Shown one piece after another: positions 1-26,298 of a DNA stretch of 29,358 nucleotides (position 1 is the first letter of the stretch; each line of letters begins with the position of its first letter). The DNA comes from a virus, in IMG/VR virus record IMGVR_UViG_3300022707_004226, positions 1 to 29,358 of that record. One strand, 5' to 3'. The translations under genes were made by a program, and so were the position numbers. The notes beneath the pieces were generated by a model. It was given only the letters and a program-made list of their open reading frames with translations. It had not been told where the DNA came from and did not search any database.

Positions 1-1
1 T

Positions 2-3000
2 ACGAGTAATTTTTGTGATTTGGATCAGTGTGGTGAGGCTGATGGTGTTGGGGAGGGTAATATTAGTATGACTGCTTCTTTTACTACGCTCGATGGTAAT
101 GAGACTACTTTAAGTTTTGTTTATAGTTTGGTTAATCTTATTGGCAGTGATGAGTTTACTGTCGATGTAGATAACGGTAGTGGTCCTGTAGAAATATTTT
201 CTGATTCAGGTACTGATGATAAAATCAGTCAATCAATTAGTTTAGGTGTTGATTTTAATAATATTTCTAATGCTAACGTGACGTTTACTTGTACTGCTAG
301 TAAGGGTGGTCGTCGTTGTTTTGTGGATACAGTTAAGATCAATACTACGGCCACGACGAGTACTAGTGCTAACCAGTCAGATTTTGATAGTGAGATCTGC
401 GGTGCTGATGGTAGTCGTGGTGTGGATGGTAATTGTAATATTGGTATACGTTGGGATGCTGAGACTCAACAATGGATTTTCTCAGGAAACATTAATGCTA
501 GTGGTACAATTACTGGTGGGTTAAGTGGTACGGGTACTACGAATAATATTCCTAAGTGGTCAGGAACGACTACGTTAACTAATAGTATTGCTAGTGATGA
601 CGGAACCAACTTCACGATAGCAGGAAACTTACAAGTGAATGATACCATGTTTGTGGATACGAGCACAGAAAGGGTAGGTATTGGCACAACAAGCCCTACT
701 GCTAAACTCCATATTCTTAAAGCCCTAGCTGACGGTAGTTCCTCGGCAGAAATAGGAACTACAAACTTGTTTACTTTAGCAGGTTCTACTAGTCAGTCAG
801 GAATCATCACTGGACTGGCAAATACAATAGTAAATAATAATGCGGGAACAATAACCCAGATGAGGGCTCAATCCAACATCGCTAATGATGCTTCAGGAGA
901 TAATTCTGGAAACGTCAATAAAATCATAGGGTTGTTCAATAGTGTTGAGGCAGGAAACAGCGTTACAGGAACCCAAATCAGTACGGGTATAGCAAATGAT
1001 AATCTTATACGAACAGTCAATAGTAAAGGAAGAATGAACACTGCAAAAGTGGTGAATGTTAAGTTAAGTTCTGGTGCTGGTGGAATAATAAGTAATGGAT
1101 TCGGAATCTTTATTGAAACGCCAGTGGCTACAGGAACGTTCACTAACAACGTTGGTTTACTTATTGAAGATCAAGCAGGTCCAGCTAACACTCAAGCTAT
1201 TGTTGTTGAAGGTGGTGAGAGCGAGTTTAATGCGGGAGCATCGACTGTTATTCCTATGATTATCAAAGGTGCTGCTAGTCAGAGTGCTAACTTGCAGGAG
1301 TGGCAGAACAGTAGTGGAGGAGTGCTTGCTAAGATCAATAGTGCAGGTGAACTTAATCTTCCTTTAGTGAATGATGCTGCTACACCAACATTATCTTTTG
1401 GTGGAGGAACTGATGGCATATATACTAGTCAAGCTACAGTACTGGATTTTTCTTTGGGTGGTTCAAGCACTTTTCAGATGGGTGCTACAGAATTTCGTAC
1501 AACATTAAGCACTGGACCAGGAATGTTCTCGACAACACCCTCTGCTACTTTCGCCACTGTATATCCTGATCGGAGCGATATTAATACTGGCTTAGGACAC
1601 GCAGCAGCAGATGTTCTTTCATTGATTGCTGGTGGAGTCAATGGACTTAATATTAATGAGACTGGTGGCGTTGCCAGAGTTGGTATCGGGACAACAAGCC
1701 CCTTAGCAAAAGTCCATATACAATCTGCTTCGGTAGGAACAATATCTCCAGTTGCCGCAGCAGATGAGTTAGTGGTTGAGGGTTCAGGAGATTCAGGCAT
1801 CACGCTCTATTCTAATAATTCCAATAGTGGATTTATTGTTTTTGCAGATCAAGATGCTAATTTTGATAACTACATTGAAATGGATCACGGTTCAAACCAG
1901 TTTAAGTTTAATGTTGGTGGTACTGAAGTTATGCGTTTCACAACAGCAAATACTAATATAGTAGCTGGAGATTTCAGAGTGTTCGCGGGAAATATGCAGA
2001 TACTAGTTGATAATGAACACATGGCTTGGGGAGTCGATCAAGACGCAACAATACTTTATGACGGGACTGATATGGTGTTTGATTCTCAAAACGTCGGATC
2101 AGGTGACTTCATATTTAATAATGGTCGTGTTGGTATTGGCACGACAACCCCTGATACGACTCTTCACGTAGGTGATGATTCCCTCACCGCATCAGGTAAC
2201 CTAGGAACTCCAAGTGTGTTCATAGAAAATAGTGGCATCAGTAATTCTTTTTCCGCTTTAAACGTACAAAACAGTTTCTTTGTTCAAAATTCTGGTAATG
2301 TCGGTATTGGCACGACAAGCCCAAACACCTTATTGCATGTTGCAGGAACCGATACTGACGGCTCACTCACTCTGGAAAGAGTAGACGCATCTATTCTGAA
2401 CGACCAAGACATAGGCACTATTGCTTTCCGAGGAGGAGAATCAATCATTGGCAATGTAGCCAGGATAACCGCTGAAGCACAAGGTAACTGGGCGGGGGGG
2501 GATTCACCAACGAAACTTACGTTCTTCACGACTCCCGATGGCTCAACAGCTTCCGTGGCCAATATGGTGCTTGATAAAGATGGTAATGTCGGTATTGGCA
2601 CGACGAATCCTCAAGATCGTTTACACTTATTAAGTGCTGGTTTCTCTGCGGTGATTCTTGAAGATAGTAGTGCATCAGTCAATGAGAAGGTGTGGGAGTT
2701 CGGTGGAGAATCAGGAATTTTTACTATAAGACGAATGACGGATATTTTTATTTCACAAAATCCTGCATTTATTATACAGGCAGATGATGACATAATAATG
2801 CAAGAGGGTAATGTTGGTATAGGAACGACGAATCCAAGTCAATTACTCCATATTAATCATGCATCTTCACCAAGAATGAGGTTTAGTGTTGCAGATAGTT
2901 CTACTGATTTTTCAGAAATATATTTAAATACTGCTACTGGTCCTTTTCGTATAGAGTACACCACACCTAATACATCTAACATTGATTTTAACCCTCTTCC

Positions 3001-4801
3001 TCAAGATGGTACGAGTAAAGCACGTTTCCGTCTATTCCGCCTAACAAATACAACGGGTGCTACTGATTTTGAAGTGCATGTAGGAGATGGAACAAATAAT
3101 GTAAATACATTATTCAGTGGGAATGGCGATTCTTATTTTAATGCTGTTAGTGGTAATGTTGGTATTGGAACGACAAGCCCGAGTGAGAAACTAAGCCTTA
3201 CTGATGGGACTTTTCAAATAAATTCTACATTCCCTTTTATTCTTCTTGTTGATTCTGACGCAGCAGCAGAGACAGATATAGGGGGAGAAATCAGTTTCCG
3301 ACGAGGAGACGGCACAGGTGGAACTGAGGGCGGAAGTTTTTTCATGCAAGCAGGAAACTTTGTTGTTCGGACACAACACAGTGCTGGACAAGTAATTTTT
3401 CGTACTGGAGACAATGTTGAAGGAATGCGTATTGACTCCTCGGGTAACGTCGGCATAGGAACGACAACTCCTGATGGACCACTCCATGTTCAGTCTGGCA
3501 CTGCAGGGAGTGTTGTCGCAAATGTTAACGCAGATGAACTCGTTGTTGAAGGCAGTGGAAATACAGGAATTTCTATAAACGTACCGGACGCAAGCGTCGG
3601 AGGAATACGTTGGAACAGTCCATCAACAGACGCTTTTGCTATTTTTCAATCACAAGAATCTACTGGTCTGATAGAAATTGCTAGTAACATCGCCGGAGGA
3701 GAGATCGCTCTCAAAACCGCTATTAATGTTGAAGCGGTCCGTATAGATGCATCAGGAAACGTCGGGATAGGAACGTCGAATCCCGGTGCACTGTTACATG
3801 TTAACCAGACAGGACAAATAGAAAAGATTGCTATTTTTGAAGGAGTAAATAATGGAGGAACACAAGTCGTCATTGATGCCAACAATGCAGATGCTAGTTT
3901 GCTTTTTCAGAATGCCGGAGTTTCCGAATGGGTTTTGGGTTTTGACGATAGCGATAGCGACAAGTTCAAAATAAACACCGGAAGTAGCTTGAACACGAAC
4001 AATAAGTTCACTATACAAGACGATGGTAACGTCGGCATAGGAACGACAAGCCCAGATACAAAACTCCAAGTTCAACAAACCTTATCGATAGATAGAGATG
4101 GTAACCAAAGAATATTACTTGACAGCAGTACAGCAACAGGGAATTTTATTCAGAGCAAAAGTAGGGAAAATAACAAGAAAGTTTTCAGAATAGATGCCCT
4201 GCACGATGAATCAGGGAGTGCTTCAGGAGTTCTCAGAATAGATTTTCGGGTAGGTGGCGTGTCCAGTCCAACAACAGTTATGAGCATTCATGAAGATGGG
4301 GAGGTGGGTATTGGCACGACAAACCCAGGTGTTGCTCTTGATGTTGTAGGAACAATACAATCAAGCAACCAAATATTTTATGCTTTTGAAGCTACAGGAG
4401 GACAAACAATACCTACTACTTTCGTGAACATCACATGGGATACAGAAATACGGGAAGATGCTTTGTTTACTCACGCAGCTAATGGTCATGAGATACAAGT
4501 TAATGAAGATGGTTTTTATGAATGGATAGTTCAATGTAGTGCGGATACTTCAGGCAGTTCTCGTGACACGAGTAATTGGCAATTAGTAACTAATTCTTCT
4601 GGCTCTTTCGTTGTTGTTCCTGGAACCCAAAGATTCACTTATCACAGAATCGCTCCTAATGATGGTAAGGGAAGCTTGAGTATCAATAGTCTTATTGACT
4701 TGAATGCTGGTGACGTAGTTATTCTTCAAGGGTTGAGTGATCAAGCTACGGCAGTAACTACTGTTGCTGATGGTTGTAGTATTCGGGCGGTGAGGATATG
4801 A
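2..4801 (+). CDS. Tail fibre / receptor-binding protein with GIGTT repeats (5' partial)
   Basis: The reading frame is open to the left edge, so the N-terminus lies outside the window; at least 1,599 residues are present. The motif V-G-I-G-T-[TS]-[STN]-P, usually followed by L-H-V/I three residues later, occurs eleven times, starting at bases 674, 1679, 2129, 2300, 2588, 2813, 3158, 3449, 3761, 4031 and 4304. Between copies are beta-rich segments of 50-330 residues. The last ~140 residues (Q-T-I-P-T-T-F ... G-D-V-V-I-L ... S-I-R-A-V) resemble a C1q/TNF-like jelly-roll head. Such repeats and heads are known from trimeric fibres of tailed viruses; no peptidase S74 autochaperone is visible. It probably forms the host-recognition fibre. 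Its stop overlaps the next start (ATGA). A run of eight G at 2494-2501 lies in the frame. Family assignment is firm; the exact virion position is inferred. Confidence 0.85.
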   Translation, partial: TSNFCDLDQCGEADGVGEGNISMTASFTTLDGNETTLSFVYSLVNLIGSDEFTVDVDNGSGPVEIFSDSGTDDKISQSISLGVDFNNISNANVTFTCTASKGGRRCFVDTVKINTTATTSTSANQSDFDSEICGADGSRGVDGNCNIGIRWDAETQQWIFSGNINASGTITGGLSGTGTTNNIPKWSGTTTLTNSIASDDGTNFTIAGNLQVNDTMFVDTSTERVGIGTTSPTAKLHILKALADGSSSAEIGTTNLFTLAGSTSQSGIITGLANTIVNNNAGTITQMRAQSNIANDASGDNSGNVNKIIGLFNSVEAGNSVTGTQISTGIANDNLIRTVNSKGRMNTAKVVNVKLSSGAGGIISNGFGIFIETPVATGTFTNNVGLLIEDQAGPANTQAIVVEGGESEFNAGASTVIPMIIKGAASQSANLQEWQNSSGGVLAKINSAGELNLPLVNDAATPTLSFGGGTDGIYTSQATVLDFSLGGSSTFQMGATEFRTTLSTGPGMFSTTPSATFATVYPDRSDINTGLGHAAADVLSLIAGGVNGLNINETGGVARVGIGTTSPLAKVHIQSASVGTISPVAAADELVVEGSGDSGITLYSNNSNSGFIVFADQDANFDNYIEMDHGSNQFKFNVGGTEVMRFTTANTNIVAGDFRVFAGNMQILVDNEHMAWGVDQDATILYDGTDMVFDSQNVGSGDFIFNNGRVGIGTTTPDTTLHVGDDSLTASGNLGTPSVFIENSGISNSFSALNVQNSFFVQNSGNVGIGTTSPNTLLHVAGTDTDGSLTLERVDASILNDQDIGTIAFRGGESIIGNVARITAEAQGNWAGGDSPTKLTFFTTPDGSTASVANMVLDKDGNVGIGTTNPQDRLHLLSAGFSAVILEDSSASVNEKVWEFGGESGIFTIRRMTDIFISQNPAFIIQADDDIIMQEGNVGIGTTNPSQLLHINHASSPRMRFSVADSSTDFSEIYLNTATGPFRIEYTTPNTSNIDFNPLPQDGTSKARFRLFRLTNTTGATDFEVHVGDGTNNVNTLFSGNGDSYFNAVSGNVGIGTTSPSEKLSLTDGTFQINSTFPFILLVDSDAAAETDIGGEISFRRGDGTGGTEGGSFFMQAGNFVVRTQHSAGQVIFRTGDNVEGMRIDSSGNVGIGTTTPDGPLHVQSGTAGSVVANVNADELVVEGSGNTGISINVPDASVGGIRWNSPSTDAFAIFQSQESTGLIEIASNIAGGEIALKTAINVEAVRIDASGNVGIGTSNPGALLHVNQTGQIEKIAIFEGVNNGGTQVVIDANNADASLLFQNAGVSEWVLGFDDSDSDKFKINTGSSLNTNNKFTIQDDGNVGIGTTSPDTKLQVQQTLSIDRDGNQRILLDSSTATGNFIQSKSRENNKKVFRIDALHDESGSASGVLRIDFRVGGVSSPTTVMSIHEDGEVGIGTTNPGVALDVVGTIQSSNQIFYAFEATGGQTIPTTFVNITWDTEIREDALFTHAANGHEIQVNEDGFYEWIVQCSADTSGSSRDTSNWQLVTNSSGSFVVVPGTQRFTYHRIAPNDGKGSLSINSLIDLNAGDVVILQGLSDQATAVTTVADGCSIRAVRI

Positions 4802-9394: not shown

Positions 9395-10027
9395 ATGAAT
9401 AAAACATTATGTGCATTAACACTAGCATTATTACCAGTCACAACGAACGCGATCACTTGGCAAGAAATACAAGAGAAGATGGTTAACGTAGACCATTACG
9501 GAACCGTAGTTGACCCGTTAGGACATCCAGTACAACGAGGACCGCAAGGAACCCTTTATGAGATTGATGATGATGGTAATCGAGTGAATCATTATCCTGT
9601 GGTCATGCACCGCCGAGGAGACCAAGCGGGCTTGCCTTGTGATACTCATTATCAAGGACAACAATTTCTTAAAGACTACGAACAATTCAGTGACGAACAA
9701 AAGGAGTATATGCGTTTGACCGGACAAAACATTAAAAAAGACGATTTTAATGGTGATGGAATAGAAGACATTCTTACGCTTACCGTAACCCACAGTACAA
9801 AGTCTTGTCATGCAAAAAGAATCTTACCATGGAAAGAGATCCAGGTGAGAATTGATTTGGGAGGACAACCTGAGAGTCAGTATAAGCATTGGGAACTCAC
9901 TGCAGGTGTGCCTGAGTTGTATCGTATAAACCGTGTAGATTACACTATTTCTGTTGAAGGTTATGATTTTTATGGTGATCGTTGGAAACAAGTGATTGAT
10001 TACTCGGGGATAAAAGATGACTTCTAA
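9395..10027 (+). CDS. Exported protein with a calcium-loop-like motif
   Basis: The gene encodes 210 residues from the ATG at 9395, five bases after GGAGATGA (9382-9389); an upstream in-frame ATG abuts that site. Residues 1-19 (M-N-K-T-L-C-A-L-T-L ... T-N-A) are a signal peptide. The mature protein contains D-F-N-G-D-G-I-E-D-I-L-T-L, a D-x-N-x-D-G-x-x-D calcium loop as in FG-GAP/VCBS and dockerin repeats, and two well-spaced cysteines. It overlaps the TM2 gene by 11 bases, and a serine protease follows, so all three may act at the envelope. Family unknown. Confidence 0.7.
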   Translation: MNKTLCALTLALLPVTTNAITWQEIQEKMVNVDHYGTVVDPLGHPVQRGPQGTLYEIDDDGNRVNHYPVVMHRRGDQAGLPCDTHYQGQQFLKDYEQFSDEQKEYMRLTGQNIKKDDFNGDGIEDILTLTVTHSTKSCHAKRILPWKEIQVRIDLGGQPESQYKHWELTAGVPELYRINRVDYTISVEGYDFYGDRWKQVIDYSGIKDDF

Positions 10028-10271
10028 AAAAGAAAGGATTTACGAAATCAAGAAGAAGAGCCCAGGAAAAGCGGCTGTGTTCAGTTTCTTTGTAGCAGGT
10101 ATAGGACATTTGTACTTGGGTCAGTTGGCTAAAGCAGCAATATACTTTGTTCTAATGGTTATTTTATGGAGTATTTGGTTAGGTTGGATCATGTGGTTCA
10201 TCATGCCATTCATAGCTTACAAAGACGCAAAAGAGCAGAATGAGTTGTTAAGACTGGAGATGAAACTATGA
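10017..10271 (+). CDS. TM2-domain membrane protein
   Basis: The gene encodes 84 residues. K-S-P-G-K-A-A-V-F-S-F-F-V-A-G-I-G-H-L-Y-L-G-Q, then K-A-A-I-Y-F and W-I-M-W-F-I-M-P-F-I-A-Y-K-D-A, fits the TM2 domain: two membrane helices, the G-x-G-H-x-Y-L-G turn and a C-terminal D-A. TM2 proteins are widespread membrane proteins of ill-defined role. It overlaps the exported protein by 11 bases and the protease by ATGA. Confidence 0.8.
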   Translation: MTSKKERIYEIKKKSPGKAAVFSFFVAGIGHLYLGQLAKAAIYFVLMVILWSIWLGWIMWFIMPFIAYKDAKEQNELLRLEMKL

Positions 10272-11197
10272 GAGAATTATTAAAGAAAATTAATGTAATA
10301 GGCTACACGAAAGGATCAAACCCTGAAGTGTTCGTAACAAAAAAATATAGTACAACAACAGCCGACAGACTGATCAACAACAAAAGAGTAGGTTTTAGTA
10401 AAGAAGACCTAGTTCCAAGATACCGTCGTACATGGTACGGACTAAAGAGACGATTAAAGGTCGTTGAAGTAGGTCATGTAAAAGCACAAATGACCCCAGA
10501 CAGGCAAGCTTACAGGCCTCTTAAAGGTGGTTGTGAAATAGGAATAGACGGGGACAGATACGTAGGTACTGGTGGAGGAGTAGTTTATCGTCACAGTTAC
10601 CGAGGACTCAAGCTCTTTGGTAAATGGGAGTTCTTCCTTAAACTACTTATCAAGCACAAAATATTTTATTCTACACAAAAATACTTGTTAACGAACACCC
10701 ACGTAGCATTGAAGAACGTGTTTAAAGACGAGCAGTTTACTTATAATCAGCCTTTAGGAGGAAACACAATATCTTGGAAGAATCAAGCTGTAGTATTAAA
10801 AGAGAAAGGGGATAACTACTTAGACGCAGCAATAATCGAGTTGCCTCCTTGGATCAAGATAAGACCTAGCCTAGTGGACGGTACTAAAATCAAAGGAATG
10901 ACCGCCCGAGTGTCTGCTAAGAATACTTTGTTCAAATACGGACGCACTACACGAGGAACTATAGGAACCTTAATCAACAAAGAAGTTACTATAATAGTCT
11001 CTTACCGATCAGGAAACGCATTATTCAAAGGAGTATACCAAGTGAGCGACATGAGCGCAGGAGGAGACAGCGGAAGTTTCGTACTGAACGAACACAACCA
11101 AGTCATCGGTCTCATATTCGCTGGAGCAAAGTACTCATACGTGATCCCTATTATGCCTATAATCAAGCATTTTAAGTTATCAACAACATATTTATAA
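10268..11197 (+). CDS. Trypsin-like (chymotrypsin-fold) serine protease
   Basis: The gene encodes 309 residues. The catalytic triad is visible in family order: His145 in L-L-T-N-T-H-V-A, Asp186 in N-Y-L-D-A-A-I-I-E-L, and Ser268 in S-A-G-G-D-S-G-S-F-V. The last is followed by the usual V-I-G-L-I-F-A-G and a Y-V-I-P-I end strand. The N-terminal ~80 residues are a basic extension without a signal peptide. It is separate from the prohead protease at 27320, so capsid maturation is an unlikely job. It is coupled to the TM2 gene by ATGA. Candidate roles are virion-associated entry protease, self-processing, or cleavage of host proteins. Fold confidence is high; the target is unknown. Confidence 0.85.
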   Translation: MRELLKKINVIGYTKGSNPEVFVTKKYSTTTADRLINNKRVGFSKEDLVPRYRRTWYGLKRRLKVVEVGHVKAQMTPDRQAYRPLKGGCEIGIDGDRYVGTGGGVVYRHSYRGLKLFGKWEFFLKLLIKHKIFYSTQKYLLTNTHVALKNVFKDEQFTYNQPLGGNTISWKNQAVVLKEKGDNYLDAAIIELPPWIKIRPSLVDGTKIKGMTARVSAKNTLFKYGRTTRGTIGTLINKEVTIIVSYRSGNALFKGVYQVSDMSAGGDSGSFVLNEHNQVIGLIFAGAKYSYVIPIMPIIKHFKLSTTYL

Positions 11198-11200
11198 ATA
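11191..11200 (+). promoter_or_regulatory. Possible TATA box
   Basis: TTTATAAATA lies across the protease stop codon, about 23 bases before the next ATG (11223). If used, it would give an almost leaderless transcript, though a GGAGATGA ribosome site is also present. Confidence 0.3.
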
Positions 11201-11222
11201 ATAAAGTCAGGAGATGATAAAA

Positions 11223-11396
11223 ATGGGAGAAAAAGACAAAGTCGTAGAACCAATGTTGAAACAAGGAGATAAAGTAATTCTCCTCTTTTGTGAAGAATGT
11301 GGTCAGCACATGACTGGAAAGAATGGAGAGAAGTGTTATTGTGGAAACTGGCTCTATTACCACTTAATGTTAAAGAAGAATGCTACAGTAGATTAA
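11223..11396 (+). CDS. Small zinc-ribbon protein
   Basis: The gene encodes 57 residues. The ATG at 11223 is chosen because GGAGATGA (11210-11217) lies five bases upstream. C-E-E-C-G ... C-Y-C-G forms a four-cysteine zinc ribbon (two knuckles, 13 residues between). It is the first of three small metal-binding genes in the next kilobase. Function unknown. Confidence 0.65.
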   Translation: MGEKDKVVEPMLKQGDKVILLFCEECGQHMTGKNGEKCYCGNWLYYHLMLKKNATVD

Positions 11397-11408
11397 TGAG
11401 GAGTTGTT

Positions 11409-11564
11409 ATGACGGGAACGAGTAATTCATTCAAAGGAATAGCAGAATTAACCGTTTGTAATGGTTGTGGTTGCCTGACTAAAACAGTAGGATTACTTAA
11501 GCCCACGCTTGATAAGGCTGAAAGGAATAATCTTGTTTGTGGGAAGTGTGGACACAAAAGATAA
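11409..11564 (+). CDS. Small zinc-ribbon protein (51 residues)
   Basis: The product has C-N-G-C-G-C at its centre and C-G-K-C-G-H-K-R at its end, 24-26 residues apart, a typical short zinc ribbon. A GAGGAG site precedes the ATG by 6 bases. It ends directly before a 13-base repeat (11566-11578). Confidence 0.6.
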   Translation: MTGTSNSFKGIAELTVCNGCGCLTKTVGLLKPTLDKAERNNLVCGKCGHKR

Positions 11565-13956: not shown

Positions 13957-14180
13957 CTTTCGAAGAAGAATTTCCAGGACTAAAAATAGTTTATTTGCCT
14001 CTAGTAATTCCTGAAGCACCAATGAATAAAAAAGTTGTTCCTTATGTTCAAGCCAATAAAGTGCAAAAACATTGTTTTAGTAAGGAACGTGTTAGAAAGT
14101 ATTTTCATTTGGATAAATGCGAGTGTTTTGAAGGGTTAGAATGTAAATATTGTCGTATTAAAAGGGAGTTGGTACTATGA
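13953..14180 (+). CDS. Small cysteine-cluster protein
   Basis: The gene encodes 75 residues. The C-terminus carries C-E-C-F-E-G-L-E-C-K-Y-C plus an earlier H-C, a likely zinc site. The N-terminal half has V-Y-L-P-L-V-I-P-E-A-P. It is coupled by ATGA on both sides. Unknown function. Confidence 0.6.
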   Translation: MTFEEEFPGLKIVYLPLVIPEAPMNKKVVPYVQANKVQKHCFSKERVRKYFHLDKCECFEGLECKYCRIKRELVL

Positions 14181-14530
14181 CTTTCTTTAGTAAAATAGTA
14201 GGCGTCACATTTAGACCAATAAAAGCATTCATAAACCTGCAAGAAGGCCAAGAACTACAGTTAGTGCCTGAGCCTAGTAATGAGTTTGATGAGTACGCAG
14301 TAGCAGTTTATCGGACTGACACTAACGAGAAACTAGGTTATTTAGGCGCTTCACACGGGTTTGCTCGGCAAGTGTTTGATTCAATGAAAAAAAACCTTTT
14401 TTTTACTACAACGATAGCTAGTCTGTCCGGTGATTGGGTGCCTGTAGCTAAGGAGGGTTTTTGTTTTTATACTCCTAGTGGTAATCATTGGGGTATTAAT
14501 ATTAGCATAAAAAAAAGAGAAGTTATTTAA
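14177..14530 (+). CDS. HIRAN-domain protein
   Basis: The gene encodes 117 residues. I-V-G-V-T-F-R-P ... E-G-Q-E-L-Q-L-V-P-E-P-S-N-E-F-D, then E-Y-A-V-A-V-Y ... K-L-G-Y-L-G, is the HIRAN signature (G-V-x ... L-x-R/P-E-P-x-N-x-x-D-x-x-A-I-x-V ... G-Y-[IL]). The domain, known from HLTF/Rad5 and from phage stand-alone proteins, binds DNA 3' ends and damaged or stalled DNA. Here it is the last gene of the RHH operon and could guard or remodel viral DNA ends. The stop codon is part of a TTATTTAAATAA stretch. Confidence 0.8.
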   Translation: MTFFSKIVGVTFRPIKAFINLQEGQELQLVPEPSNEFDEYAVAVYRTDTNEKLGYLGASHGFARQVFDSMKKNLFFTTTIASLSGDWVPVAKEGFCFYTPSGNHWGINISIKKREVI

Positions 14531-14550: not shown

Positions 14551-14585
14551 ACCACGGAGAGATTAAAAAATTATTGTTACGTGGT
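14551..14585 (+). repeat. Inverted repeat ahead of the tRNA-like element
   Basis: ACCACG at 14551-14556 and CGTGGT at 14580-14585 are perfect complements enclosing an AT-rich loop of 23 bases. It sits 13 bases before the tRNA-like element and may belong to the same structured transcript. Confidence 0.35.
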
Positions 14586-14598
14586 TGAGTATCGATGA

Positions 14599-14675
14599 GT
14601 GGTCGTGCAGACTGTTGAGAAGCTGCGCTTGATATACTCTAGGCAAGCAATCCGGTTCGATTCCGGACAATCACA
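14599..14675 (+). tRNA. tRNA-like element with an irregular anticodon arm
   Basis: The T arm is textbook: TCCGG (14651-14655), loop TTCGATT, then CCGGA. The acceptor strands GTGGTCG (14599-14605) and CAATCAC (14668-14674) pair at 6 of 7 positions with one G-T. The D stem is GCAG/CTGC. The anticodon arm is not canonical: GCTTG pairs perfectly with CAAGC, leaving a 12-base loop and only two variable-loop bases. An alternative stem, GCTTG/TAGGC, leaves an 8-base loop. CTCTA in the loop would read as a CUA anticodon in the right sequence context, but without a proper stem. No CCA is encoded. It may be a degenerate or unusual viral tRNA, or a tRNA mimic; identity is not assigned. Confidence 0.5.
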
Positions 14676-14707
14676 GGAGGAGTTGTCAGTCCCTAACAAG
14701 CTTAAGA

Positions 14708-14725
14708 GTTGATTGTACAATCAAC
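14708..14725 (+). repeat. 18-base perfect palindrome
   Basis: GTTGATTGTACAATCAAC is fully self-complementary. A wider pair, TTGTCAG (14684-14690) and CTGACAA (14728-14734), encloses it. ACAATCA within the palindrome also occurs at the 3' end of the tRNA-like element just upstream. It could be an operator for a dimeric regulator or an RNA hairpin. Confidence 0.6.
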
Positions 14726-14740
14726 AACTGACAATTCACA

Positions 14741-17178: not shown

Positions 17179-17435
17179 TAAATATGTTAGGGATATTCAT
17201 TAGTTTTTTTTCTGGAGTATTAATGGGGTTCGTAGATCGTCTATGGCCTAAAGTGTTTATTATTCTATTGTTATCAATTATAGTTTTATGGCTTATTTCA
17301 TCCTTTTTGTTACCGGTAAGTGCTATTGATTTCAACAATTATTATCTTCGTTGGGGTGTGTTGCTAGAGATTGGTGGAATGATTCTTGGTTTGTTTGCTG
17401 GAAGAGCTATGGCTAAAGTTTATGAGGGTAATTGA
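17175..17435 (+). CDS. Multi-span membrane protein
   Basis: The gene encodes 86 residues with three hydrophobic segments: residues 4-20 (G-I-F-I-S-F-F-S-G-V-L-M), 26-52 (V-F-I-I-L-L-L-S-I-I-V-L-W-L) and 60-80 (W-G-V-L-L-E-I-G-G-M-I-L-G-L-F-A-G). It lies among three small membrane proteins between 16859 and 17981. Function unknown. Confidence 0.6.
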   Translation: MINMLGIFISFFSGVLMGFVDRLWPKVFIILLLSIIVLWLISSFLLPVSAIDFNNYYLRWGVLLEIGGMILGLFAGRAMAKVYEGN

Positions 17436-17981: not shown

Positions 17982-18268
17982 TGTTTGTGACAAAAAAGAA
18001 GTACAATAAATTATTTATTAAATGCAAAGAATTAATAATAATTAATAACGCGTTGAATACTGCCTTGGTAAAGAAATTAGAACCAGGTTATGTGTGTGTC
18101 ATTAAGATAAATGAAATAATTAATAATTTTCAGACAGAACTAATATATAATCAAATTAATGCGTTGTCAGAAAAATATTATGGTGGTGAACGGGTTGGTT
18201 TATTGTTTATTGCTAGTAATGGTGCTGAACAGAAGATTTTAAGTAAAAGAAAGATAAATGAGGATTGA
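17981..18268 (+). CDS. Small protein of unknown function
   Basis: The GTG at 17981 is preferred because GGAGG (17968-17972) lies eight bases upstream, giving 95 residues; a GTG at 17966 is further inside the previous gene. It is Asn/Ile/Lys-rich, with a predicted helix (K-C-K-E-L-I-I-I-N-N-A-L-N) and a strand V-G-L-L-F-I-A-S-N-G. Its codons are more AT-rich than its neighbours. No family recognised. Confidence 0.55.
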   Translation: MFVTKKKYNKLFIKCKELIIINNALNTALVKKLEPGYVCVIKINEIINNFQTELIYNQINALSEKYYGGERVGLLFIASNGAEQKILSKRKINED

Positions 18269-18273
18269 TATAT

Positions 18274-18744
18274 ATGGAACAGATTGAATTAACAAGAACA
18301 GTAGAGTCAGTAACAGACGATAAAATAGTTTTTTGTACTCGGAATGTAGTGTCATATACTATGGATGAGTGTGTTAAGATTTTGCCTCAGCATGAGGCTA
18401 AACTCATTACTAGTCTTCAGGAGAAGGAAAACCTAGCAAAGTTGATTGGTAACAAGTTTTGGGAGAAAGAAGCAGAAGATATTGATAATAATATTAGTAA
18501 GGCTGAAGAACTTGTTAAACTCTTTACAGATGCTCTGAAGCCTTATTTTGAGGTTTTGATTAAGAAGGGTCGTTTGTTTATTGGTGTTGAGAAGAAGAAG
18601 CAGCATTATGATCGTATGACGAAAGGTGAGGCTAAGGTTGTTTTACAGGTTAAGATACGTAACGAGTGCCGTGCTCATCTCGGTCTTGATGATATTCTTC
18701 ATCCTGTGATGCTGACATTAAGAGAAGAATTTGAAAAACTATAG
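18274..18744 (+). CDS. Helical protein of unknown function
   Basis: The gene encodes 156 residues from the ATG at 18274. It has beta strands at the N-terminus (V-E-S-V-T-D-D-K-I-V-F-C-T-R-N), a long charged helical centre (Q-E-K-E-N-L-A-K-L-I-G-N-K-F-W-E-K-E), and a conserved-looking end (R-N-E-C-R-A-H-L-G-L-D-D-I-L-H-P). No family recognised. It precedes two genes that end in the 19467-19689 structured gap. Confidence 0.65.
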   Translation: MEQIELTRTVESVTDDKIVFCTRNVVSYTMDECVKILPQHEAKLITSLQEKENLAKLIGNKFWEKEAEDIDNNISKAEELVKLFTDALKPYFEVLIKKGRLFIGVEKKKQHYDRMTKGEAKVVLQVKIRNECRAHLGLDDILHPVMLTLREEFEKL

Positions 18745-18754
18745 AGGTGACTTT

Positions 18755-18922
18755 ATGAAAACACAAGAAGAAATAGAAAAACGTTTACGAGCAATAAGGG
18801 CAGATTTACCTGCAGATTCAGCTGTACCTAGTGATATAATGTTTGCACGGGTAGGAACGTTATTATGGGTTTTAGAAAGAGAAGATGAATCTCTACAAGG
18901 GAAGGTGAAGGAAGATGCTTAG
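18755..18922 (+). CDS. Small helical protein (55 residues)
   Basis: GAGGTGA (18744-18750) sits four bases before the ATG. The product is M-K-T-Q-E-E-I-E-K-R-L-R-A-I-R-A-D-L with a second helix V-G-T-L-L-W-V-L-E-R-E. It overlaps the next gene by 8 bases. Unknown function. Confidence 0.6.
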   Translation: MKTQEEIEKRLRAIRADLPADSAVPSDIMFARVGTLLWVLEREDESLQGKVKEDA

Positions 18923-19466
18923 AGGTAGTGATAATTTAACTCAGCCACTCGCGCAAAGAATGCATGCAAGGATAGAAGAATTACGAGAGATCGGTTACAA
19001 TAATTTTCAGAAGGGAGAAGACGGTGAGCACCACCTCATTCCTGCTGAGATGCCTATTGCGGGAAGAGTATTTTTCCGAGATAATGTGAAGGTTATTGAT
19101 AAGGATCATTTTGAACTTAAGTATAATTTGTTCAAAACAGAAACTGTAGACGGGATTATACGTCCTGTTCGTGGTTTGATGGATCCTGATAAAGGAGCTA
19201 AGGGTGGTACTATGGTTAAGACTGTTGATCGTCAGGTTGTCGAGACTTTTAAGAAAGCCAGACCTTTTACTAGGAAAGTGACTGTTCTTGAAACTGGTGG
19301 TATAGCGCCTATGTATAAAAACAAGGCTTTCCGTGCTGAGAGAAGGAAGTTGACTGGTATGGATGCTCCTGAGACCGAGCCTGAACCTAAGGATGAGGAA
19401 TCAGAGGAAGTAAAGAAACCCTCTGATCCTCGTCCTAAGGGCTTTAGTACCGGTAGCGCCGTCTAA
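18915..19466 (+). CDS. Hypothetical protein with acidic tail
   Basis: The gene encodes 183 residues. The N-terminal part is helical (Q-P-L-A-Q-R-M-H-A-R-I-E-E-L), followed by a beta-rich core (M-P-I-A-G-R-V-F-F-R-D-N-V-K-V-I-D). A disordered Glu/Pro/Lys tail begins at about residue 148. It starts inside the previous gene and is the last gene before the second tRNA-like element. No family recognised. Confidence 0.65.
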   Translation: MLRGSDNLTQPLAQRMHARIEELREIGYNNFQKGEDGEHHLIPAEMPIAGRVFFRDNVKVIDKDHFELKYNLFKTETVDGIIRPVRGLMDPDKGAKGGTMVKTVDRQVVETFKKARPFTRKVTVLETGGIAPMYKNKAFRAERRKLTGMDAPETEPEPKDEESEEVKKPSDPRPKGFSTGSAV

Positions 19467-19478
19467 TAACTCTTTTTT

Positions 19479-19552
19479 GTTGGTGGTCGGCAGTCTACTC
19501 AAGCCAGTGGGGGTTGTGGATTGCTCTTCTGGTTTGATTCCAGCCACCAACG
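19479..19552 (+). tRNA. Second tRNA-like element
   Basis: The acceptor stem is perfect: GTTGGTG (19479-19485) with CACCAAC (19545-19551). The T arm, TCTGG-TTTGATT-CCAGC, has four of five pairs. A D-arm-like GGC ... GCC follows the acceptor. The middle (G-rich GTGGGGGTTGTGGATTGC) gives no canonical 5-bp anticodon stem; a 7-base loop with GUG at the anticodon position is possible only with mostly G-T pairs and a mismatch. The start, GGTGGTCGGCAGTCT, parallels GAGTGGTCGTGCAGACT of the element at 14599, suggesting common origin. It is preceded by a T6 run. It may be a viral tRNA that has lost decoding ability, or a tRNA mimic. Confidence 0.5.
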
Positions 19553-19572
19553 TTTATAATTAGTTCCCTATA

Positions 19573-19665
19573 CGTGAATGGCACCGCAAAATACTGTTGG
19601 TGTTTCCCGACGAAGTTACTCTTTTCTTTGTTGTCCTGCCAGCGACCTCCGCAACGCCATTCACG
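19573..19665 (+). ncRNA. Candidate structured RNA closed by a 10-bp stem
   Basis: CGTGAATGGC (19573-19582) and GCCATTCACG (19656-19665) are perfect complements separated by 73 bases. The enclosed sequence is GC-richer than its surroundings, has no supported coding frame, and contains GTTGGTG again, the same 7 bases as the acceptor of the adjacent tRNA-like element. It ends 10 bases before a GGAGATGA ribosome site, so it could be the leader of the next operon. Confidence 0.45.
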
Positions 19666-19689
19666 GGGGAAAACAAGGAGATGATAATA

Positions 19690-19836
19690 ATGATTAAGCA
19701 TTTAACATCAAGAAAAAAAAAGGTTGCTCGTTGTGGTATGGATGTTTACGGAATGAGAATCCGGGGTGATGTATTAGTTACTGGTTGGGCTTATGTTACT
19801 TGTAAAGATTGTTTAAAAAAGAAGTTATGGAGATGA
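19690..19836 (+). CDS. Small phage-type zinc-binding protein (48 residues)
   Basis: The ATG at 19690 lies after GGAGATGA. K-H-L-T-S ... R-C-G-M-D ... V-T-C-K-D-C-L-K fits a recurrent small phage protein pattern (H-L-T ... C-G ... V-T-C-x-x-C-L), likely binding one zinc through His/Cys. Role unknown. First gene after the structured gap. Confidence 0.6.
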   Translation: MIKHLTSRKKKVARCGMDVYGMRIRGDVLVTGWAYVTCKDCLKKKLWR

Positions 19837-23949: not shown

Positions 23950-26298
23950 ATGAAGGGGTTGTACTCACCAATCACTTTCATGAATGTGCTTGATAAATTA
24001 AGGAAATACTGGAGCGTTCCAGAACCACACGAAGTAGTAGCGAAAGGCTTTACTCCAGATAATCGTTCTAGACTAACGACTAGTAACTTACCTACTTATC
24101 CTATCTGGTTTTACAGCCCATTAAGGGGTATTCCTCGTACAGGAAACAATATAGAAACCAGACAGTTCGCTCGATCTAGTTGGGTGCAGATGGTTCATTT
24201 TGCTATTAAGAAGGCTGTTACTCAGACTCCTTGGGATATAGTTGTTGACAGTTCTGATCCTGAGATTAATGAGGATGATTTTAAAGAAGATATTTTGTTT
24301 GCTCGTACTTTCTTAGAAAACCCTAATCGTGAGTTACGACAGAATTTTGATGATCTTATTTGGCCTATGCTGACTGATCTTCTTGAGATTAATACTGCTG
24401 TGTGGTATCTTAATGGTAATGTTAAGGATCGCTTGCTTGAAATAATCTCTTACGATGGTAGTACTTTTTTGATCGAGCAGGAAGAGTCAGGCTTCTTAGA
24501 GAAGTACTGGCAGTTCACTTACAAAAACCCTATACTCGCTCCTCGGCCTTTCGAGCCAGAACACATTGTTTTCTTTCAGATGAACAAACAAACGTACGAC
24601 CCATACGGAATATCTCCTTTACATGTTGTTGAGACTATTGTTGAATTGCTGGATCAGTCTACTCGTTTTAACAAAGACTTTTTTCTTAATGATGCTATAC
24701 CTGCTATTATCTTGAACGCTATCGGTGCTGGTGTGGAAGGTTTGCAGGCTATTGAGGATAGTTGGAATGAACAATTAAGAGGGGAGAACGCTCGTATTAT
24801 TACTATTGATGCTCCTGATCTTAAGGTTGAGAAGATTCAGATGTCGAATCGTGATATGGAATGGTTAGACGGAAATAAGTTGTATATGCACGTAGTCTTT
24901 GCAGCTCATGGTCTAAGTCCTACTGAGGTTGGCTTTACTGATACTACTGGTTCTAAGAATGTTCAGGAGGGTCAGCAACAAATTACTATTAAGAACGCTC
25001 ATAAACCTTATCTTCATCTTATTGAGAAAGAGATTAATAACATGGTTTTGCCTTGGATATTGGGTGAGATGGACGTTCTTCCTCATGAACGTAAACCATT
25101 GAAATTCAAGTATTTCATTCAGGATCCTGCTATGGAATCTGCTGAGCAAGAGGGTCAGCGTAAAGACGTAGATACTAAGATACTCAGTATTAATGAGGTT
25201 CGTAAAGAGCGAGGAATGGAACCTTTCCCTAGCCCTGCAGCTAACGATCCTTTTTTTATAGATCCGGCATTACAAGCTGGTCTTGAAGCTGCAAGCAACC
25301 CAGGAGATGATAATGATGGAAATGTTCAAGAAGATGATAGTAAGAGAAAGCGTTACGGAGCTACCCGCAAGCCAAAAAAAGAAAAAGAAGAAGACGAAGA
25401 AACTGATAAGAACGCCTTAACGACTGAAGATATTGACGTTGATCGAAGACACCTACTAATCAGTGAGCCTTTAACTACTCGTAAACCAGGTGATAAGAAC
25501 TGGTTATTACTTACAGAACAGATCAAGGCCGCTACTCCCGTTCCTATCGAGGCGGGTCAGGATTACGCTACTTTCATGGACAAGATGCTGAGTGAGTGGG
25601 AGCGTCAGGTGATTAAAGGTATTAATTCTCGTTTGTTTAAGAACATAGAAAAAGAAGCTTTTATGAAGGGTTTTAATGATTTTATGAGCGTGGTCGTTGG
25701 TCGTGTTACGACGACTCCTTTCCTTAATGTGCTAAAGACTGTTGTGCGTAATACTATGGGTTTGGGTGTTGATGAGGCTGAGGAAGAGTTGGATATGAAT
25801 GTGGCTATGGGTTTGTCTTTTCGTGCGAAAGTAGATGCTGAGACTAATAAACAGTTTGACGGTTATACTTTAGTGGATGGTTCTCGTTGGATTGGTCTTA
25901 AGGGAGTTTCTCAGCAGTTGCAGAATAAGATTTTGATGACAGTAGATAAAGGATTGACTGAAGGGAAGTTTGCTGGTGAGATAGTACAGGATGTTCAGGA
26001 CGTGTTTGAGGGTGTTAAGAAGTCTCGTGCTCAGGCTATTGTGCGTACTGAGTCTACTCGTATAGTTAATGAAGGAAAATTACTAACTTATCTTGAGTCT
26101 GGTGTTCCGGGAAGAAAGCAGTGGATTGCTTTTAATGATGCTCGTACTAGTGATACTTGTGAGTTCATGGATAATCAGGTTGTTTTATTAAGTGAGAAGT
26201 TTGTTGATGATGAAGGTAAGGAGTTTCAAACACCGCCCTCTCACGTCAATTGTAGGAGTACTATAAGGTTTCTTCCTGGTTTGGATGGTGGTTCTTAA
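23950..26298 (+). CDS. Portal protein fused to MuF-type minor head protein
   Basis: The gene encodes 782 residues. Residues ~50-430 are the portal: W-V-Q-M-V-H-F-A-I-K, L-T-D-L-L-E-I-N-T-A-V-W-Y, D-P-Y-G-I-S-P-L, and the helix before W-I-L-G-E-M. Residues ~440-500 are a highly charged linker. The C-terminal ~110 residues are a phage Mu gpF-like domain: R-A-Q-A-I-V-R-T-E-S-T-R ... R-K-Q-W-I-A-F-N-D-A-R-T-S-D-T-C-E ... P-P-S-H-V-N-C-R-S-T-I-R. The portal forms the twelve-fold ring for DNA passage; MuF domains are injected or head-associated. Usually these are two genes. If the promoter motif just upstream is used, the start is ATG 23980 instead of 23950. Confidence 0.85.
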   Translation: MKGLYSPITFMNVLDKLRKYWSVPEPHEVVAKGFTPDNRSRLTTSNLPTYPIWFYSPLRGIPRTGNNIETRQFARSSWVQMVHFAIKKAVTQTPWDIVVDSSDPEINEDDFKEDILFARTFLENPNRELRQNFDDLIWPMLTDLLEINTAVWYLNGNVKDRLLEIISYDGSTFLIEQEESGFLEKYWQFTYKNPILAPRPFEPEHIVFFQMNKQTYDPYGISPLHVVETIVELLDQSTRFNKDFFLNDAIPAIILNAIGAGVEGLQAIEDSWNEQLRGENARIITIDAPDLKVEKIQMSNRDMEWLDGNKLYMHVVFAAHGLSPTEVGFTDTTGSKNVQEGQQQITIKNAHKPYLHLIEKEINNMVLPWILGEMDVLPHERKPLKFKYFIQDPAMESAEQEGQRKDVDTKILSINEVRKERGMEPFPSPAANDPFFIDPALQAGLEAASNPGDDNDGNVQEDDSKRKRYGATRKPKKEKEEDEETDKNALTTEDIDVDRRHLLISEPLTTRKPGDKNWLLLTEQIKAATPVPIEAGQDYATFMDKMLSEWERQVIKGINSRLFKNIEKEAFMKGFNDFMSVVVGRVTTTPFLNVLKTVVRNTMGLGVDEAEEELDMNVAMGLSFRAKVDAETNKQFDGYTLVDGSRWIGLKGVSQQLQNKILMTVDKGLTEGKFAGEIVQDVQDVFEGVKKSRAQAIVRTESTRIVNEGKLLTYLESGVPGRKQWIAFNDARTSDTCEFMDNQVVLLSEKFVDDEGKEFQTPPSHVNCRSTIRFLPGLDGGS

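Follow-up and report, generated by a model that had tools for sequence, protein, structure and literature searches.

At the joint of two gene blocks that share one strand, three strong hairpins (H1, E2 and H3) follow each other in a row from 19385 to 19672 of the window, i.e., the entire stretch of 29,358 nucleotides analysed here, which comes from an uncultured tailed virus that probably infects archaea (Table 1). The middle one, E2, had been described in an earlier note as a tRNA-like element. It starts 12 nt past the stop codon of the upstream gene, lies on the same strand as the genes and is followed by the ribosome-binding site and start codon (ATG 19690) of the next one.

Table 1. Features of the gene joint, together with the first tRNA-like element of the window
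Feature	Position	Strand	Description
E1 (first element)	14581..14675	+	Better acceptor (GTGGTTG/CAATCAC), perfect T arm; suggestive of a class II tRNA
Upstream gene, 183 aa	18915..19466	+	Conserved in the relative G001 to about residue 128
H1	19385..19441	+	Nearly perfect hairpin of 20 bp (three runs) within the 3' end of gene 18915-19466
E2 (the element)	19479..19552	+	Closed by a stem of 8 bp; T arm resembling that of a tRNA in the 3' part; best fold one long hairpin
H3	19565..19672	+	Long imperfect hairpin directly 5' of the ribosome-binding site of ATG 19690

H1, which is located in the coding sequence about 25 nt ahead of the stop codon, is the strongest local fold of the window with both strands considered (–32.4 kcal/mol, z –5.1), and H1 and E2 are the top two folds of the + strand. 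Without constraints, E2 folds into a single long hairpin of –34.3 kcal/mol (z –4.0 to –4.5), a value equalled by none of 200 shuffles, while H3 reaches –38.6 kcal/mol (–37.8 kcal/mol and z –4.3 for 19565-19670). On the opposite strand, the E2 fold is far weaker (–21.0), and the RNA of the coding strand is consequently the relevant form. Intrinsic terminators were found at about the expected frequency between 4700 and 24000 (11 as opposed to 9.0 expected), none of them at E2.

The tRNA-like half of E2

A tRNA-like top half, consisting of acceptor and T arm but no anticodon, is present at 19479-19552. The outer stem GTTGGTG/CACCAAC (19479-19485/19545-19551) forms all seven pairs with a pairing probability of 1.0, and the perfect 7-bp acceptor stem claimed in the earlier note in fact extends to 8 bp (GTTGGTGG/CCACCAAC). 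The distance from the acceptor start to the T-loop start, 54 nt, is that of a normal tRNA. The T arm, called good in the same note, is indeed there, but its stem TCTGG/CCAGC has only four of five pairs, with one U.C mismatch, and its loop TTTGATT places a U at the nearly invariant C56. As claimed, a proper anticodon stem is missing, since no central 7-nt anticodon loop exists (closing probability 0.01), and the D loop lacks GG.

In the preferred long hairpin the T arm is broken, as its bases pair with CAAGCCAG; because they pair better in this way, the T stem has a probability of just 0.02 in the unconstrained ensemble. This value is not decisive by itself, considering that, among 11 genuine tRNAs from related viruses, two likewise show 0.08 or less. 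Imposing acceptor and T stem leaves the centre as a single long arm and gives a total of –32.0 kcal/mol, i.e., a cost of only about 2 kcal/mol. Folded alone, the centre gives z –2.3 (p 0.02). The folding z-scores of the 11 viral tRNAs range from –1.0 to –3.4, every one of them weaker than that of E2.

The small cost of the constrained fold bears on the idea that E2 is a working tRNA mimic, at which RNase P of the host, possibly along with tRNase Z, would cut at a 12-bp acceptor/T-like stack and thereby separate messages. Such a stack is what RNase P measures (PMC4919913), and the enzyme processes tRNA-like and other RNAs, some of them from phages (PMC11143913), which makes a processing reading of E2 feasible. 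In E2, the stack (8 + 4 bp) is possible at –32.0 as compared with –34.3 kcal/mol for the preferred hairpin, and comes with G1-C72, a U at position –1 and a single-stranded U run upstream. It would be embedded in a longer transcript, as in the mimics known to be cut by RNase P, including mascRNA, plant-virus tRNA-like ends and phage RNAs (PMC11693755, PMC11143913). In contrast to these, however, E2 is a putative site known from sequence, its T arm is not part of the favoured fold and occurs in just 2% of the predicted ensemble, and the element is not conserved in the nearest relative, G001. We consider this role improbable, and even more so the wider notion that an archaeal virus might use tRNA mimics without an anticodon, excised by RNase P (and tRNase Z), as punctuation of its polycistronic transcripts, so that host tRNA-processing enzymes would set the operon boundaries. 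If E2 were such a signal, archaeal viruses would divide their messages via the tRNA-processing enzymes of the host.

E2 is not a usable tRNA gene. With default settings, ARAGORN reported neither tRNA nor tmRNA in the whole window, and the Rfam tRNA model RF00005 gave no match to E2 at E <= 10; together with the absent anticodon arm, a canonical tRNA gene was rejected. The best and only Rfam match of E2 is to tRNA-Sec (RF01852; 21.4 bits, E 0.05), and this identity was dismissed as well, the score being far under the gathering score of 47. E2 shares with tRNA-Sec the long acceptor and a 4-bp T stem, but has no D and anticodon arms and measures 74 nt as opposed to about 91 nt. Archaeal tRNA genes may also be interrupted or split (PMC4090602). 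A hidden intron was addressed by feeding every contiguous deletion (up to 40 nt for E1, up to 10 nt for E2) to ARAGORN: E2 yielded no default call, and removal of 3–6 nt from E1 led to a Ser(UGA) call. The latter is no evidence for a tRNA, as 139 of 400 shuffled centres also received a call with at most 4 nt removed; single contiguous inserts thus give nothing beyond shuffled controls, and a cloverleaf drawing that tolerates deletions requires such controls. Likewise, a tRNA-His reading of E2 was no better under ARAGORN than that of shuffled centres, and stop codons are in normal use (24 TGA, 11 TAA, 6 TAG), on which ground a non-standard genetic code involving a suppressor tRNA was discarded.

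Chance expectation, the first element and related viruses

How often tRNA-like ends arise was estimated with a descriptor demanding a G-TTYRANY-C T loop, a 5-bp T stem and a 7-bp acceptor 48–90 nt upstream, on which E2 scores 20 and E1 23. Among 3000 dinucleotide shuffles of the window, the best place scored at least 20 in 39 (about 1.3%) and at least 23 in 4, and none contained two places of at least 20, as the real window does. Across 1.29 Mb of DNA from related viruses, all 11 places scoring 21–24 are tRNAs, and the top non-tRNA place scores 19. The tRNA-like ends are therefore uncommon, those of E1 more so than those of E2. That E2 is a chance resemblance, in a sequence without RNA function, is nevertheless conceivable in so far as some shuffled windows hold an equally tRNA-like place, the whole window had been inspected and the nearest relative lacks the element; against this stand the fold of E2 (z about –4) and the two strong adjoining hairpins, and we judge mere coincidence to be improbable.

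E1 is a better, albeit still putative, tRNA candidate than E2, its likeness to class II tRNAs being a suggestion. GTGGTTG at 14581 forms 7/7 pairs (6 of them Watson-Crick) with CAATCAC and dominates the E1 ensemble, whereas the acceptor that the earlier note probably had in mind, GTGGTCG at 14599, includes a mismatch as well as a wobble pair. The 7-nt loop GTTGAGA, with UGA at the anticodon positions, is closed at a probability of 0.81 by a 6-bp arm, GCAG(A)CT/AGCTGC. The E1 centre as such is not beyond chance, since shuffled centres often equal it under ARAGORN. Upstream, E1 is directly preceded by a gene for a HIRAN-domain protein (14177-14530); on its 3' side, and 5' of ATG 14788, a nested palindrome GTTGTCAGT...GTTGATTGTACAATCAAC...ACTGACAATT spans 14679-14740.

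The two elements had been proposed to be related on the basis of a shared 5' part. The local match GTGGTCG-GCAG.CT has a p of about 0.03 relative to shuffles, and the global similarity with the T arm excluded a p of 0.1. As the better acceptor of E1 starts at 14581, the shared string occupies non-equivalent positions, namely the acceptor of E2 and an inner arm of E1. Apart from the T arm, the sequence comparison hence reveals no convincing likeness of E1 and E2 and gives no support for a single family, and we found none either for a common function as a decoy family or as recombination sites.

Searches with the neighbouring gene or the terminase alone retrieved no relatives; when alignments were used in searches for portal, capsid and terminase, about 100 related loci were obtained. 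G001, at 39.9 kb the nearest long relative (terminase about 50% identical), keeps counterparts of the genes at 17432, 18265, 18915 and 21041 as well as the terminase, in order. The interval from the 18915 to the 21041 counterpart holds two other small ORFs and no E2-like element, and the related viral DNA, the viral contigs and the phage and plasmid records searched yielded no relative with E2 either. The earlier note had counted missing conservation of the pairing in related genomes, or matches of each locus to unrelated sequences, against its proposal; in part this is what we see, with G001 retaining the flanking genes without E2 and the likeness of E1 and E2 being as weak as described above. 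The idea that both elements bracket accessory genes was not borne out either: the two genes that end the block (18265-18744 and 18915-19466) show synteny to the G001 terminase region, and E2 consequently closes no separate cargo island. G001 further carries, on its reverse strand at 31410-33182 (L041), a phosphoesterase-like gene into which, judged from the translation, an intein- or Hint-like segment is apparently inserted.

E2 sits at the upstream end of a slot filled with different genes in the window virus and in G001. This position would suit an attachment site (attP), with the 3' part of E2 copying a host tRNA gene used for integration, and tRNA genes are frequent integration targets of archaeal viruses (PMC8651126, PMC4090602). 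Still, no integrase occurs among the approximately 30 ORFs scanned (of a record that is possibly incomplete), an attP would not be expected to be a self-complementary unit of 74 nt, and phage and plasmid records contained no relevant match to E2, the one 30-nt match lying outside of it. We therefore rate integration as the least probable of the explanations. The exact 23-nt pattern of the T arm and acceptor had no match in viral contigs, and a provirus search for the host in bacterial and archaeal genomes returned none.

Several relatives carry tRNAs. L056 (capsid 51% identical) encodes a short-arm tRNA-Tyr of the C1-G72 type and L101 (terminase 30% identical) intron-containing tRNAs, which, by established tRNA identity rules, point to archaeal hosts. 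On the – strand of L101, 12 tRNAs are predicted at about 9950-11450, including two intron-containing calls (Ile, Arg). In comparison with the tRNA genes carried by tailed viruses of archaea (PMC8651126; here those of L056, L101 and L049), E2 shares a 7-8-bp acceptor-like stem, a T-arm-like hairpin, the spacing and the strand of the genes, but differs in lacking an anticodon arm and a D-loop GG, in U56, the T-stem mismatch and the long-hairpin fold, and in its rejection by ARAGORN and RF00005.

Such tRNAs in related viruses, the score of E2 above all non-tRNA places in the related DNA, its tRNA spacing and the second, better element in the same window would all be consistent with a virus-borne tRNA gene that has decayed or strongly diverged, its D and anticodon arms having been lost to degeneration and its acceptor and T arm retained. 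Faint hints of such an origin come from the loop TTGTGGA, which is His(GUG)-like, and from an eighth pair resembling G-1:C73, although, as noted, the His reading is no better than that of shuffled centres. Neither the exceptionally stable hairpin, which decay does not predict, nor U56, the D loop without GG and the U.C pair fit easily. On balance, we regard decay as unlikely, yet as the strongest of the alternatives.

A putative mRNA boundary

Considering the hairpin strength, the strand preference and the position relative to the stop codon and the ribosome-binding site, we tentatively favour E2 as an RNA-level mRNA boundary structure at the joint of the two gene blocks and not a working tRNA gene, although this falls somewhat short of an even chance. 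A transcript of 19385-19672 would fold into three stable hairpins: H1 at the gene end, E2 in the gap and H3 before the next ribosome-binding site. E2 would close by its 8-bp stem, with the preferred fold running on as one long hairpin. The cluster may mark an mRNA boundary, where it could protect or define the upstream 3' end and separate two messages. The acceptor/T-like half would then be either a relic of an ancestral tRNA sequence or a coincidence.

RNase III sites of T7-type phages are an example of intergenic hairpins for mRNA processing or stability. Like E2, such structures are stable imperfect hairpins between co-oriented genes; E2 differs in its tRNA-like ends, and its role in processing is putative. 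Three points argue against an mRNA boundary. A plain hairpin leaves the T-arm motif at tRNA spacing inside the closing stem unexplained (39/3000 shuffles), there is no terminator signature, and E2 is absent from G001, which gives no support for a conserved role.

Overall, an mRNA boundary ranks first, followed by a decayed tRNA, a tRNA-mimic processing site, chance and an attachment site. E2 is thus probably either a decayed tRNA or a structured gene boundary of an ordinary kind, and is best read as an RNA-structure element at the operon joint that is possibly tRNA-derived. By its ends alone, a stable hairpin between genes can look like a tRNA, and so can a tRNA that has decayed.

Elsewhere in the window, a tail-fibre-like gene with about ten copies of an 'NVGIGTTSP' repeat occupies 1-4801, and a trypsin-like protease is encoded at 10268-11197. 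A AGGAGATGATAATRATG-like translation start sequence occurs in three copies, at 11204-11225, 19671-19692 and 25297-25318.
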